Positions 24,918 to 44,234 of a stretch of DNA of 64,000 nucleotides are shown here, in pieces (positions within the stretch are counted from its first letter, which is position 1; every line of letters begins with the position of its first letter). The stretch is from Methanobacteriota archaeon (GTDB lineage Archaea > Thermoplasmatota > E2 > JACPAO01 > JAHWKR01), in assembly GCA_019347805.1 (NCBI GenBank), contig JAHWKR010000001.1, forward strand, positions 23,119 through 87,118, read 5' to 3'. The notes below the pieces were generated by a model. The model was given only the letters and a program-made list of their open reading frames with translations, was not told where the DNA came from and made no database searches. The translations under genes were made by a program, and so were the position numbers.

Positions 24918-25412
24918 ATGGGCGAAGTCACTCTTTCCATGGAAGCGATGCAGATCATCGCGACCGCAGAAGACGTCATCCTCAAAGAGGCCCGCAAACA
25001 GATCCTGAAAGGCAAGGACGCGGGCGAGAAGGCCCCGGTCGGCCAACTCAAGATCAACATCATGGACCTTGTGGAGGAGGAGGACAAGATCACCTTCCTC
25101 GTCGGCAAGGGCCAATTGGGTCTTGCGCTCGGAAAGGGCGCGCGCAACCTCGAGGCGCTCAAGAAAGTGTTCGGCAAGGAGGTCAAGGTGGTCGAATACG
25201 ACGACGACCTCGAGCGCTTCGTGCGCAACCTGTTCAAGCCGCACACCATCGAGACCATCTCGGTCGAGTCCGAGGAGGACGGCATCTTCGTCCGCTGCGT
25301 CGTCAAGCCCGAGGACAAGGGCAAGGCCATCGGCAAGGCCGGACGCAACATCAACGTCGTCAGGACGTTGGCGCGGCGCCACCACAACATCTCGGAGCTG
25401 AAAGTCGAGTAG
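24918..25412 (+). CDS. nusA: archaeal NusA-like KH-domain transcription factor
   Basis: NIMDLVEEEDKITFLVGKGQLGLALGKGARNLEALKKVFGKEVKVVEY ... RCVVKPEDKGKAIGKAGRNINVVRTLARRHHNISELKVE. Confidence 0.92.
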   Translation: MGEVTLSMEAMQIIATAEDVILKEARKQILKGKDAGEKAPVGQLKINIMDLVEEEDKITFLVGKGQLGLALGKGARNLEALKKVFGKEVKVVEYDDDLERFVRNLFKPHTIETISVESEEDGIFVRCVVKPEDKGKAIGKAGRNINVVRTLARRHHNISELKVE

Positions 25413-25489
25413 ACTTTCAGTGACGAGACAGTGACCCGAGCCGGCCCGAGGTCGGCGAGGGGAACATCAGCGAATTGAAGGTCGAGTAG
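25386..25489 (+). repeat. direct duplication of nusA 3' end (NISELKVE-stop encoded twice with synonymous differences)
   Basis: 25386-25412 aacatctcggagctgaaagtcgagtag; 25463-25489 aacatcagcgaattgaaggtcgagtag. Confidence 0.8.
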
Positions 25490-25630: not shown

Positions 25631-25884
25631 AAAAGTCCGTCCAAAACCGGGACGGACCCTTGGAGGGGTGGAGAGGGACCCCCTTGCGGGGGTGCTTGGA
25701 GGTATCGGTTGAGCCTGACCCCCCGAAGGGGGCTTGGAGGTATGCAGCGATGAGAGGGACCCCCGTGCGGGGGTGCTTGGAGGTATCCGGTGAGAGGGAC
25801 CCCGCCCCGAGGGGGCGGGGGTGTGGTGGCGTGGTGGTGCGTGCGTTCCCGCCCGAAGGCGGGGAGGACGCGCTTGCGCGTGTC
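25631..25884. repeat. hairpin array 1: about six GC-rich stem-loops with GGAGGTAT-type tails
   Basis: GTCCGTCC..GGACGGAC; GACCCCCTTGCGGGGGT; GACCCCCCGAAGGGGGC; GACCCCCGTGCGGGGGT; GACCCCGCCCCGAGGGGGCGGGG; CCCGCCCGAAGGCGGG; three copies of (GC)TTGGAGGTAT. Confidence 0.85.
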
Positions 25885-26026: not shown

Positions 26027-26815
26027 GTGCTCGCCGTCCAGACCCGTCGCCTCGGCAAGACCTTTCGCACCGGCGACCTGGATGTCCCGGTGCTGCACGA
26101 GGTCGACCTCGCCGTCCCGCGCGGGGCCTTCGTGAGCCTGATGGGGCCCTCCGGTTCCGGGAAATCGACGCTCCTGCACCTGGTCGGGCTCCTCGACACG
26201 CCGACCGTCGGCGGGGTGCGCCTGATGGGCCGCGACACGCGCCGCCTCGATGCCGACGGCCGCGCCAGGGCACGTCGCGACCTCGTCGGTTTTGTCTTCC
26301 AGTCGTTCCACCTCGTCCCGTCCGCGTCGGCGTTGGAGAACGTCATGCTGCCGATGGCCTTCGCCGGGGTGTCGCGCCACAAGCGGAAGAAGCGCGCCGA
26401 GGCGCTCCTTGAAGAGGTCGGCCTCACGGACCGCGTCAAGCACAAGCCGAACGAGCTTTCGGGCGGTCAGAAACAGCGGGTGGCGATCGCCCGTGCGCTC
26501 GCGTTGGACCCGCCCATCATCCTCGCCGACGAACCGACCGGCAACCTCGATTCAAAGACATCGCGAGAGGTGATGACGCTCTTTTCGCGTCTCCACGGCG
26601 AGGGCAGGACCATCGTCCAGGTGACCCATGACGAGGAGATGGCGCGCTATGGCGACCGCATCATCGACATCCGCGACGGCCGTATCGTGCAGGAGCGCGA
26701 CCGCACCGGACTCGTGCGTCGGGTGCGACCGACCGCGGAAGCAACGGACGGGCCGACGACCGCGTTGGGCCAGGTGGCCGATGTTCGCCTCAAGCGCGAG
26801 GGGGTGCGACCATAA
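26027..26815 (+). CDS. ABC transporter ATP-binding protein (LolD/MacB type)
   Basis: MGPSGSGKSTLLHLVGLLDTPT (Walker A), NELSGGQKQRVAIARAL (signature), IILADEPTGNLDSKT (Walker B); GTG start. Confidence 0.95.
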   Translation: MLAVQTRRLGKTFRTGDLDVPVLHEVDLAVPRGAFVSLMGPSGSGKSTLLHLVGLLDTPTVGGVRLMGRDTRRLDADGRARARRDLVGFVFQSFHLVPSASALENVMLPMAFAGVSRHKRKKRAEALLEEVGLTDRVKHKPNELSGGQKQRVAIARALALDPPIILADEPTGNLDSKTSREVMTLFSRLHGEGRTIVQVTHDEEMARYGDRIIDIRDGRIVQERDRTGLVRRVRPTAEATDGPTTALGQVADVRLKREGVRP

Positions 26816-26835: not shown

Positions 26836-28062
26836 ATGGCGATGCGTTCGCTCTGGACGCACAAAACGCGCTCGCTTCTGACCATCCTCGGTGTCGTCAT
26901 CGGCATCGGTTCGGTGCTCGCGGTGGTGACGCTCGGTGCGTCGTTCGAAGAAAGTGTGGTGTCGCAGTTCGACGCCTTCGACCAGCGCTCGGTCTTCGTC
27001 ATGGCGAACGACGGCTCGACACCACATGGACCACCGGACCCGGGGCAGTTCGGTCTCATCTTCACCGAGATCGACCGGCAAGCGCTCGCGGCGATGTCTG
27101 GAGTGGAACGGGTGCTCGCCGAGGGCAAGGTGCCGGTCGCGGGCCTCGCCTATGGTGAGATGGAATCACCCTACAAGGAGCTCAGCGCGGTCGACCTGGC
27201 GGCGCAGGTGCTCGCGGCGGAGCGGTTCGCATCAGGCGGCGTCTTCATGTCGGGTGAAGAGGAGGCGGTGCTCGGTGCGACGGTCGCTGAGCGCCTCGGG
27301 GGCGGCACGGCGGTGGAGATCGGCAGCGAGATCGGCCTGCGCTATCCCGACGGCACGTTGCGCACCGTGACGGTGACCGGGGTCCTTGCGGACCAGGAAG
27401 GGGTGTTCGAGGAGGCGGACGGCCAGGTCTACGTCCCGCTCGAGCCGTTCTACACGACGATGCGCAAGAGCCCGTCCACGGCTGAGGAGGTGCGTGTCTA
27501 CAGCGCCCTCACGGTCCTCGTGGGCGACCCGCGCGACGTCGTCCAGGTGCGCGACCGCATCGAGGCCCACATGCAGGACGAGAGCGATGCGAGCCGGCTC
27601 CTTGTCGGTTCGACGGAGATCCTGGTCATGACGCCGGGCGACATCACCGACCAGATCAGCGCCGCCTTCGCGCAGATCACCACGTTCATCGGCGCGATCG
27701 CCGTCGTCTCGCTCCTCGTCGGTGCCATCGGCATCGCCAACATCATGCTGGTCTCGGTGGCGGAGCGGACGCGCGAGATCGGCGTCATGAAGGCAATAGG
27801 GGCGCTCGACCGCGACGTCCGGTCGCTCTTTCTGTTCGAGGCGGTCCTGGTCGGCCTCCTCGGTTCGCTCCTCGGCATCGGGCTCGGCCTCGGCGGCGGT
27901 GCGATGCTCGTGCGTTTCCTCTTCGAGACGACGGTGACGTTGCCGTGGGACTGGCTCGTCGTGTCGGTCGGGGTCGGGGTGTTCGTCGGCGGTCTGGCGG
28001 GTTACCTGCCCGCCAGACGGGCGACGAAGATCGATCCGGTCCTGGCGCTCGCACGCGAATGA
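26836..28062 (+). CDS. ABC transporter permease (MacB/FtsX type)
   Basis: LRMAMRSLWTHKTRSLLTILGVVIGIGSVLAVVTLG; GAIGIANIMLVSVAERTREIGVMKAIGALDRDV; GYLPARRATKIDPVLALARE. Confidence 0.93.
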   Translation: MAMRSLWTHKTRSLLTILGVVIGIGSVLAVVTLGASFEESVVSQFDAFDQRSVFVMANDGSTPHGPPDPGQFGLIFTEIDRQALAAMSGVERVLAEGKVPVAGLAYGEMESPYKELSAVDLAAQVLAAERFASGGVFMSGEEEAVLGATVAERLGGGTAVEIGSEIGLRYPDGTLRTVTVTGVLADQEGVFEEADGQVYVPLEPFYTTMRKSPSTAEEVRVYSALTVLVGDPRDVVQVRDRIEAHMQDESDASRLLVGSTEILVMTPGDITDQISAAFAQITTFIGAIAVVSLLVGAIGIANIMLVSVAERTREIGVMKAIGALDRDVRSLFLFEAVLVGLLGSLLGIGLGLGGGAMLVRFLFETTVTLPWDWLVVSVGVGVFVGGLAGYLPARRATKIDPVLALARE

Positions 28063-28077: not shown

Positions 28078-28490
28078 AGAAAGGGACCCCGCCCCTTGCG
28101 GGGCGGGGGCTTGGTGGTGTGGTGGTCCTTGCGTGCGTCTGTGCGGCAAAGCCGCGGTGATCGGGACCCCGCCCGTTTCCGGGCGGGATGTGGTGGTGGT
28201 GCGTGCGTGGACGAGAGGGACACCCCACGCCCGAAGGGCGCGGGGGTTCGGAGGTATGGCTTTTTAAGAGGAAGGAGACCCGCATTCTCATGCGGGGAGG
28301 TGTGGTGGTCGGAGGTATCGATTGATCGGGACCCCGCCCGTTTCCGGGCGGGGTGTGGTGGTGGTGCGTGCGTGTTTGAGAGAGACCCGCACTTTCGTGC
28401 GGGGAGGTGTGGTGGTCGGAGGTATCGTTTGAACGGTACCCGCCCAAGGGCGGGAGGGTGGCGTGGGGGTGCGTGCGTCGGCGCGGCCCG
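28078..28490. repeat. hairpin array 2: about eight GC-rich stem-loops alternating GGAGGTAT and GTGGTGGTGCGTGCGT tails
   Basis: GACCCCGCCCG-TTTC-CGGGCGGG (twice), GACCCGCAT-TCTC-ATGCGGG and GACCCGCAC-TTTC-GTGCGGG followed by identical GAGGTGTGGTGGTCGGAGGTATCG. Confidence 0.88.
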
Positions 28491-28755: not shown

Positions 28756-28765
28756 GTTATATAGG
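28756..28765 (+). promoter_or_regulatory. putative TATA box (GGTTATATAG) for rps12 transcript
   Basis: AT-rich box in GC-rich background about 130 nt before rps12 ATG. Confidence 0.55.
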
Positions 28766-28887: not shown

Positions 28888-29316
28888 ATGGCAACCGGAC
28901 TCAACGCGGCCCGTAAACTCCAGGCGGAACGGCAGAAGTTCCGCTGGTCGGACCGCTATTACAAGAGGCGTGTACTTCGGCTCAAAGAGAAGGCCGACCC
29001 GCTCGGGGGTGTCCCCCAAGCCCGCGGCATCGTCGTGGAGAAGGTCGGCATCGAGGCGAAACAACCGAACTCGGCCATCCGCAAGTGCGTGAAGGTGCAG
29101 CTCATCAAGAACGGTCGTCAGGTGACGGCGTTCGCTCCCGGTGACGGCGCCATCAACTACATCGATGAGCACGACGAGGTCATGATCGAGGGCATCGGTG
29201 GCCGCATGGGACGTTCCTACGGTGACATCCCCGGTGTGCGCTTCAAGGTCATCCAGGTCAACAGCGTCTCGCTCATCGAACTGGTGCGCGGCAAGAAAGA
29301 AAAACCGATGCGGTGA
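28888..29316 (+). CDS. rps12: ribosomal protein S12 (uS12)
   Basis: [71 protein letters not shown]. Confidence 0.97.
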
Positions 29317-29971: not shown

Positions 29972-30128
29972 ACCCGCCGCCCGGCTCGACGGATAGCTTT
30001 ATCCGACCATGCCGGGCGAGCCTGTCCACCCTCCCCCCTCTCCTCCCCGTGACTCTCCCCCGACGTTCATCCCGGCACGTGGCCTTGCCCCGGAGCCGGT
30101 CATCACCGTCCAACCCGAGGCCGCTCCC

Positions 30129-32330
30129 ATGGGACGCAAAGAGGACAACATCAAGAAAGCGAAGAACATCATGCACGAGTTGGACCGCGTGCGCAACATC
30201 GACATCGCGGCCCACATCGACCACGGCAAGACCACGCTCTCGGACAATCTGATCGCTGGCGCCGGCATGATGAGCGAGGAACTCGCGGGCAAGCAGCTCG
30301 CGCTCGACTTCGACGAAGAGGAGCAGGCCCGTGGCATCACCATCAACTCCGCCTCGGCGTCCATGGTGCATGATTACAACGGCGTCGACTACCTCATCAA
30401 CCTCATCGACACCCCGGGTCACGTCGACTTCGGTGGCGACGTCACGCGCGCCATGCGCGCGGTCGACGGTTGTGTCATCGTCTGTTGCGCGGTCGAGGGG
30501 CCGATGCCCCAGACCGAGACCGTGGTCCGGCAGGCGCTCCGTGAGAAGGTGCACCCGGTGCTCTTCATCAACAAGGTGGACCGGCTCATCAACGAGCTGA
30601 AGGTCACGCCCGAGCAGATGCAGGAGCGCTTCGTCAAGTGGATCACCCAGGTCAACCGCCTCATCGCCAAGACCGTCCCCGGCGAGTTCAAGGAGAAGTG
30701 GAAGGTAGCACCCGGTAACGGCACGGTCGCCTTCGGCTCCGCCTACCACAACTGGGCCATCACCGTGCCCTACATGCAGCGCTCCGGTGTCACGTTCAAG
30801 GACATCATCGAGATGAACATGAACGGCCAGACCAAGGAGCTCGCCAAGAAGGCACCGCTTTCGAAGGTCCTTCTCGACATGGTCATCACGCGCCTGCCGT
30901 CGCCGAAGCTCGCGCAGGCCTACCGCATCCCGCACATCTGGCACGGCGACCCCGAGTCAACGGCCGGCAAGTCGATGATCGAGACCGACTCCAAGGGCCC
31001 GACCGCGTTCATGGTGACGAAGATCATCGTCGACCCGCACGCTGGCGAGGTCGCTTTCGGTCGTCTCTATTCCGGTTTCCTCGAGCGTGGGCAGGAGCTC
31101 ACGGTGCTCGGCACGAGCCACAAGAACCGTGTCCAGCAGGTCAGCATGATGGTCGGCGCCGACCGGGTCACCGTCGAGCGCGTCGTCGCCGGCAACATCG
31201 CCGCCGTGACGGGTCTCAAGGACGCCATGGCCGGTATGACCGTCGGGTCCGACCCCGAGATGGCGCCGTTCGAGAAGATCGTCCACGTCTCCGACCCGGT
31301 CGTCACCAAGGCGGTCGAGGCGAAGCACATGAAGGACCTCCCGAAGCTGGTCGAGGTCATGCGTCTCATCAACAAGGGCGACCCGTCGCTCGAGGTCAAG
31401 ATCGACCAGGAGACCGGCGAGCACCTGATGATGGGGATGGGTGAGCTCCACCTGGAGATCATCGAGAACCGCATCAAGCGCGACTTCGGTCTCGAGATCA
31501 CGACCGGTGAGCCCATCGTCGTCTACCGTGAGTGCGTCAAGGGCGACAACCGCTCCCACGCGTTCGAGGGCAAGTCGCCGAACAAGCACAACCGCTTCTA
31601 TTTCGTCGTCGAACCGCTCGAGGAGAACGTCGTCAAGGCGATCCACGACAACGAGATCCCGTCCGACGCGAAGAAGTTCCAGAAAGAGGTCGAGCGGGGC
31701 CTTATCGAGCTCGGCTGGGACAAGGACCAGGCCAAGAAGGTCAAGGACATCCAGGGCACGTGCGTGCTCGTCGACGGCACGAAGGGTGTCCAGAACTTGT
31801 TCGAGACCTTCGAACTGATCAAGGACGGTTTCAAGGAGGTCGTCAACCGCGGTCCCCTCGCCGGTGAGCCGGTGACCGGGCTGAAGGTGGTCCTGATCGA
31901 CGCCAAGCTCCACGAGGACGCGGTCCACCGTGGTCCCGGCCAGGTCATCCCGGCGGTGCGCAACGGTGTCTATGGTGCGATGGTCCTCGCGGGCCGCACG
32001 CTCCTTGAGCCGATGCAGAAGGTCGTCGTCGATGTCCCGCAGGACATGATGGGCGACGTGACGCGTGAGATGCAGACCCGCCGCGGTGTCATCGAGGACA
32101 TGGCCGGCGAGGGCGACAGGAGCATCATCACGGCCAAGGCGCCGGTCTCGGAGATGTTCGGGTTCGCGGGCGCCATCCGCAGTGCGACCGCAGGCCGTGC
32201 CCTCTGGTCGACGGAGAACCTCGGCTTCGAGCCGCTCGACCCGAGCCTTCTCGACAAGATCACGCGCACGGTGCGTGAGCGCAAGGGGCTCAAGCCCGAG
32301 CCCTACGACGCGGCCTACTACGCCGGGTAG
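30129..32330 (+). CDS. fusA: translation elongation factor EF-2
   Basis: VRNIDIAAHIDHGKTTLSDNL, DTPGHVDFGGDVTRAMRAVDG, HEDAVHRGPGQVIPAVRNGVYGA. Confidence 0.97.
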   Translation: MGRKEDNIKKAKNIMHELDRVRNIDIAAHIDHGKTTLSDNLIAGAGMMSEELAGKQLALDFDEEEQARGITINSASASMVHDYNGVDYLINLIDTPGHVDFGGDVTRAMRAVDGCVIVCCAVEGPMPQTETVVRQALREKVHPVLFINKVDRLINELKVTPEQMQERFVKWITQVNRLIAKTVPGEFKEKWKVAPGNGTVAFGSAYHNWAITVPYMQRSGVTFKDIIEMNMNGQTKELAKKAPLSKVLLDMVITRLPSPKLAQAYRIPHIWHGDPESTAGKSMIETDSKGPTAFMVTKIIVDPHAGEVAFGRLYSGFLERGQELTVLGTSHKNRVQQVSMMVGADRVTVERVVAGNIAAVTGLKDAMAGMTVGSDPEMAPFEKIVHVSDPVVTKAVEAKHMKDLPKLVEVMRLINKGDPSLEVKIDQETGEHLMMGMGELHLEIIENRIKRDFGLEITTGEPIVVYRECVKGDNRSHAFEGKSPNKHNRFYFVVEPLEENVVKAIHDNEIPSDAKKFQKEVERGLIELGWDKDQAKKVKDIQGTCVLVDGTKGVQNLFETFELIKDGFKEVVNRGPLAGEPVTGLKVVLIDAKLHEDAVHRGPGQVIPAVRNGVYGAMVLAGRTLLEPMQKVVVDVPQDMMGDVTREMQTRRGVIEDMAGEGDRSIITAKAPVSEMFGFAGAIRSATAGRALWSTENLGFEPLDPSLLDKITRTVRERKGLKPEPYDAAYYAG

Positions 32331-32336
32331 GGGGGT

Positions 32337-32372
32337 CTGGGGGGAAGGGGCGGCTTAGCCCCTTCCCCCCAG
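32337..32372. terminator. perfect 15-bp stem-loop directly after EF-2 stop (function inferred)
   Basis: CTGGGGGGAAGGGGC-ggctta-GCCCCTTCCCCCCAG, preceded by GGGGGT. Confidence 0.55.
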
Positions 32373-44202: not shown

Positions 44203-44234
44203 CTGGGGGAGGGAACCTAGGTTCCCTCCCCCAG
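44203..44234. terminator. 32-bp perfect palindrome between convergent genes (function inferred)
   Basis: CTGGGGGAGGGAACCTAGGTTCCCTCCCCCAG, preceded by GGGGGT. Confidence 0.55.

Follow-up and report, generated by a model that had tools for sequence, protein, structure and literature searches.

The window analysed here, a stretch of 64,000 nucleotides from an archaeal contig, contains two arrays of short hairpins that flank an ABC-transporter gene pair, one on each side. The pair comprises an ABC transporter ATPase gene (26027–26815, + strand; PF00005) and a gene for a MacB/FtsX-type permease (26836–28062, + strand; PF12704 and PF02687). Array I (25671–25863, + strand) occupies the spacer between a nusA-like KH gene (stop at 25412) and the ATPase gene (26027), and consists of four units plus a final hairpin at 25848–25863. 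Array II (28078–28490, + strand), with seven units and one mini-hairpin, has the permease gene (stop at 28062) on one side and rps12 (start at 28888) on the other. Both arrays are sense relative to their flanking genes, and a TTATATA box at 28757, 3′ of array II, is a likely candidate for the rps12 promoter.

The units of array II follow one plan: an TGAGAGGGACC-like lead, often preceded by NTGA, a GC-rich stem of 5–10 bp, a loop of 3–4 nt, and one of two tails, with GGAGGTAT standing at the end of tail A and tail B reading GTGGTGGTGGTGCGTGCGTG. Along the + strand, unit II-1 (28087–28108) is CCCCGCCCC-TTGC-GGGGCGGGG, with a 9-bp stem and a B-like tail; the mini-hairpin GCGGC-AAA-GCCGC (28143–28155) sits in the spacer between II-1 and II-2, separate from the units. 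Unit II-2 (28168–28187; CCCGCCCG-TTTC-CGGGCGGG, 8-bp stem) carries tail B at 28189–28209, and unit II-3 (28228–28240) has the core CGCCC-GAA-GGGCG, an imperfect lower stem, and the tail GGAGGTAT. Tail A follows both unit II-4 (28279–28296; CCCGCAT-TCTC-ATGCGGG) at 28297–28320 and unit II-6 (28386–28403; CCCGCAC-TTTC-GTGCGGG) at 28404–28427, while tail B follows unit II-5 (28331–28354; ACCCCGCCCG-TTTC-CGGGCGGGGT, 10-bp stem) at 28354–28374 and recurs in degenerate form after unit II-7 (28439–28454; CCCGCC-CAAG-GGCGGG). Units II-4 and II-6 are 90% identical over 60 nt; for II-2 and II-5 the figure is 92% over 64 nt. An RNA model predicts a two-layer G-quadruplex for tail A (−11.8 vs. −1.0 kcal/mol without the quadruplex) and none for tail B.

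Array I shares the lead, stem type, and tails of array II and was absent from an earlier sequence-only reading of this locus. Its units, all on the + strand, are I-1 (25678–25693; ACCCCC-TTGC-GGGGGT) and I-3 (25759–25774; ACCCCC-GTGC-GGGGGT), both with the tail TGCTTGGAGGTAT, I-2 (25720–25732; CCCCC-GAA-GGGGG), with the tail CTTGGAGGTAT, and I-4 (25800–25820; CCCCGCCCC-GAG-GGGGCGGGG), with a B-like tail. Nearby, the 3′ end of the nusA-like gene (encoding NISELKVE-stop, 25386–25412) is repeated with synonymous differences 77 bp downstream, at 25463–25489. In each copy a hairpin of 7 bp or more spans the stop codon (GAAAGTC-GAGTA-GACTTTC and GAAGGTC-GAGTA-GACCTTC), and one pair is compensated between the two. 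Elsewhere in the window, long perfect palindromes with stems of 15 and 14 bp lie at 32337–32372, directly after an EF-2-like gene (30009–32330), and at 44203–44234; their similar ends, CTGGGGG...CCCCCAG, suggest another small palindrome family.

Compared with dinucleotide shuffles, array II contains five stems of at least 7 bp against a mean of 0.14 (maximum 2; none of 1000 shuffles reached five), and eight of at least 5 bp against 1.77 expected. Because its units are duplicates of one another and so are not independent, this excess is valid for the array as a whole rather than for eight hairpins singly. The array of GC-rich hairpins that the sequence-only reading had described at 28078–28490 is borne out. 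Its two alternating tails had been spelled correctly (tail A after the units at 28279 and 28386, tail B after those at 28168 and 28331), as had the units GACCCGCAT-TCTC-ATGCGGG and GACCCGCAC-TTTC-GTGCGGG, whose tails are indeed identical; the positions given for these two, about 28276 and 28383, were one base off, GACCC starting at 28277 and 28384. The change in the loop-closing pair from T-A to C-G, reported there as compensatory, is real, and a change from C-G to G-C also occurs in the array. We rejected a protein-coding repeat: no open reading frame over the array matches Pfam, was called as a gene, or has a coding score, and the unit spacings of 40, 53, and 107 are not multiples of three.

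A looser comparison of hairpin flanks across 1.30 Mb of the genome located a third array, likewise missing from the earlier reading, on contig C52 (17306–17565), with units such as TGAGAGGAAGGGGACCCCG-TCG-CGGGGCCTGGGGAGGT. This array is antisense to both of its neighbours, ftsZ and an NmrA-family gene. Units on C12 and C52 have lead and tail motifs in common and differ in their stems. In total the family comprises about 16 units, confined to one genome and grouped in three intergenic arrays. Exact gapped patterns found the unit only at arrays I and II in the whole assembly; when the same assembly was scanned with a looser pattern and with a profile of 49 positions covering all 16 units, no fourth array emerged, and the covariance model of the 16 units, in effect sequence-only, likewise gave no further arrays.

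Beyond this genome, BLAST of array II drew no match in any of the 80 further genomes of the class that were searched (three of the same order, none of the same family) or in plasmids or phages. A viral or plasmid origin was set aside, the sole match being 17 bases in a viral contig, without a hairpin. Rfam 15 gave no array match at the gathering score, the only hit in the window being a tRNA elsewhere, and nothing relevant at a relaxed threshold, where one chance match to the mir-4433 microRNA family appeared (E = 1.5). An ancestral element of the nusA–rps12 spacer was also rejected: other genes lie upstream of rps12 in the relatives read, and at nearly all of the loci searched tblastn placed no homologue of nusA, abcA, or macB immediately before rps12, so that no orthologous spacer was available for comparison.

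Compensated variation within array II is confined to the loop-closing pair, which is T-A, C-G, or G-C depending on the unit, and the lower stems of II-2 and II-3 are broken. For a wider sample we used 1.30 of the 2.94 Mb of the genome (44%), read as stretches, with hexamer-based gene calls made for this analysis. Stem positions in noncoding hairpin copy pairs (n = 36, a small set that includes related pairs) were compensated in 17 cases, broken on one side in 34, and broken on both sides in 8. Changes on both sides numbered 26, against 9 expected if the arms varied independently, and 17 of these 26 were complementary, compared with 26 of 102 in pseudo-hairpin controls, which are not hairpins. 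Arm-templated mutation would leave such a mixture of compensated and one-side-broken positions; strong selection would have purged the broken stems. Perfect stems can arise and be repaired through replication template switching, with no selection acting on RNA (PMC8794818), so compensated changes need no selection, and the paired base changes in the array do not show RNA function. The sequence-only reading had seen in them “selection for structure, not mere repetition,” which the tests do not support: only two loop-closing pairs are swapped, some stems are broken, the C52 array is antisense to its neighbours, and hairpins in this genome show no peak behind stop codons (below). The covariance model it had proposed, built from 16 units, contains zero consensus pairs, RNAalifold having been run on a poor MAFFT alignment in which arms of unequal length are misaligned. 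That reading had counted a lack of further copies, and equally a match to a known family, against its case. These grounds apply in part: no copies turned up in relatives, the genome holds three arrays only, and no known Rfam family is matched.

On balance we regard the arrays as probably a family of short palindromic DNA repeats, low in copy number and specific to this genome, duplicated locally and kept paired by templated repair. The family unit has an TGAGAGGGACC-like lead, a GC-rich stem of 5–10 bp, a loop of 3–8 nt, and a G/T-rich tail running to GGAGGT or TGCGTGCGT; copies stand in tandem with common flanks, and their stems are unlike yet paired. Within the spacer, the units would have multiplied through tandem duplication and unequal exchange, with a two-unit A-B duplication among the steps, which would give the alternating tails and is the simplest account of the order A-B-A-B. 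Template switching during replication, or templated repair from one arm to the other, would both keep and redraw the stems, and conversion between units would assist their repair. No dedicated cellular function would be required, and effects on DNA topology or on the 3′ ends of RNAs, if there are any, would be secondary. Of the options listed in the sequence-only reading, the “selfish palindromic repeat” comes closest to this account.

Several observations speak for palindromic DNA repeats of this kind: the tandem one-unit and two-unit copies, the restriction to three arrays with no BLAST match in relatives, phages, or plasmids, an orientation untied to transcription, the flat hairpin profile around stop codons (below), unrelated arrays of redrawn hairpins elsewhere in the genome, and the excess of paired double changes, which the published mechanism fits exactly (PMC8794818). 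Against them stand the flanks common to C12 and C52 despite different stems, which some factor might recognise, and the spread to a second contig, which pure slippage does not explain.

The units might instead be structured RNA in a 3′ UTR or spacer, acting in stability, processing, or transcription stop, with selection holding the stems, which we judge unlikely. The placement of both window arrays suits such a role, each lying 3′ of a same-strand gene and ahead of the next, with array II before the TTATATA box, and so do the pairing kept in nearly all units, the better folding of both strands than of shuffled sequence, and the quadruplex that the RNA model allows for tail A. Against it, the C52 array is antisense to its genes; with the window arrays being sense, the tails have no fixed relation to transcription. 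Among 948 genes, hairpins occur at about 2–4 per 100 genes in each 15-nt bin from −150 to +150 around the stop codon, with no peak downstream, and palindromes span the stop codon in 27 of the 948; this flat profile means that hairpins do not generally mark RNA ends in this genome. Nor does the array match Rfam, recur in relatives, or yield a consensus pair in the 16-unit model on its poor alignment. A run of at least five Ts follows a hairpin only once (TTTTT at 28261, after II-3), and an intrinsic terminator was rejected on this and on the antisense C52 units.

That the units are REP- or MITE-like mobile palindromes, moved in trans by a transposase, is improbable on present evidence. They are small, intergenic, and hairpin-shaped, and they occupy two distant loci with a common lead and tail and unlike stems. 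However, a search of the assembly for a Y1 (IS200/RAYT) transposase came back empty, though it was positive in 5 of 14 known genomes used as controls, the stems lack a GTAG or CGTC tag, the roughly 16 copies stand in three places only, and no target-site duplication came to light. A binding or topology site (for a nucleoid protein, gyrase-like binding, a cruciform, or a G-quadruplex) that insulates the transporter pair from nusA and rps12 would accord with the bracketing of that pair by the two arrays and with their G-rich tails, including the predicted quadruplex of tail A, but seems very improbable, as the third array adjoins ftsZ and has no such gene pair, the tails do not exceed shuffled ones in triplex potential, and tail B forms no quadruplex in the model.

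Redrawn stems are not confined to this family: in other intergenic arrays of the same genome, unrelated in sequence, the flanks are conserved while the hairpins between them are redrawn. Downstream of tRNA-Arg(tct) (L169 4457–4670; G000:C10), the 3′ end of the tRNA takes turns with its reverse complement, and each turn carries a hairpin of its own, four in all between 4500 and 4670 (e.g., GGCAC-TAC-GTGCC vs. GGACC-TGC-GGTCC). At L153 10444–11089 (G000:C1), the 3′ ends of tRNA-Val and tRNA-Gln are each repeated in tandem downstream with hairpins, and the stems of the tRNA-Gln copies are wholly different. Ten of 358 genes, including the nusA gene next to array I, have their own stop-codon region copied downstream, whereas control stretches upstream of the stop gave none of 358 at a distance of 200 or 300 nt and 2–3 at 60 or 120 nt; two of the ten lie near N runs, as possible assembly artefacts. 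Exact duplications beside N runs (L167 near 15519, L174 near 9443, and L165 near 1343) may be products of scaffolding, and the first two were given no weight.

Further intergenic tandem hairpin arrays of unrelated sequence were seen at L220 5560–6000, L194 13250–13420, L210 14640–15000, L179 3180–3360, L198 11100–11450, and L192 18684–18891, several of them containing a copy of the 3′ end of the upstream gene. A relative of the same order (G001) has a similar array with a 123-bp period at an apparent gene 3′ end (L250 16020–16310); judged by eye, its repeat unit resembles the 3′ terminus of a minus-strand, acyl-CoA dehydrogenase-like gene. We tentatively raise the possibility, itself doubtful, that a replication or repair process of this lineage repeatedly turns gene and tRNA 3′ ends into arrays of fresh perfect hairpins between conserved flanks, of which the window arrays would be mature products. 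If true, this would be a natural system in which “compensatory” hairpin changes arise through mutation alone. The array studied here is a cautionary case: its seemingly textbook RNA covariation can be accounted for by duplication of DNA palindromes together with their templated repair. In the same genome, this mutational route could be tested directly on several independent arrays, which adjoin protein genes as well as tRNAs.

The terminal repeats of Escherichia coli tyrT (rtT) are tandem repeats that start with a copy of the tRNA 3′ end. The tRNA-Val, tRNA-Gln, and tRNA-Arg arrays of this genome are like them in this respect, whereas the window arrays contain no copied tRNA end. BoxC and other intrastrand triplex motifs place a C-rich arm, a loop, a G-rich arm, and a G-rich tail in the same order as our units (PMC4666352), but a BoxC-like triplex was rejected, as the tails fit the third strand no better than shuffled tails do. 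Hairpins produced by template switching, or quasipalindrome mutation, offer a parallel, in that replication errors create and mend their perfect stems and give paired changes without selection; there they were followed in RNA genes along phylogenies, whereas here the comparison is between copies within one genome (PMC8794818).

REP and BIME elements are described as GTAG- and CGTC-tagged GC-rich palindromes of 20–40 bp, intergenic and clustered, with subfamilies that differ by complementary stem residues (PMC3733652, PMC2817692), and as usually exceeding 100 copies dispersed over the genome (PMC2817692). Our arrays are likewise clusters of short intergenic palindromes of 20–40 bp with complementary stem differences. 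Unlike REPs, no unit has GTAG or CGTC at the stem edge (leads are GGGA, GAGA, or GTA, and tails start with GAGG, TGTG, GCTT, or similar), all units of one array share one orientation, and there are about 16 copies in three arrays rather than the usual >100. A search for RAYT (PF01797) gave no match in this genome, which is about 91% complete; as CGTC repeats have been reported without a dedicated transposase, this weighs mainly against the GTAG kind. Judged by tag, Y1 transposase, and copy number, the defining features that were tested, the arrays are not REPs.

Mitochondrial repetitive hairpin families, which include sponge RHE, fungal double-hairpin elements, and yeast GC clusters, are local, genome-specific, and often tandem (PMC2800124). 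The types “blue15” and “yellow18” differ by a few complementary substitutions, and no adaptive function is known for these families (PMC2800124). The arrays described here differ in lying on an archaeal chromosome and in having far fewer copies; they are alike in being a local intergenic hairpin family with complementary substitutions, a likeness of kind that implies no common ancestry. By analogy, the arrays resemble REPs and mitochondrial RHEs in form and probably also in behaviour.
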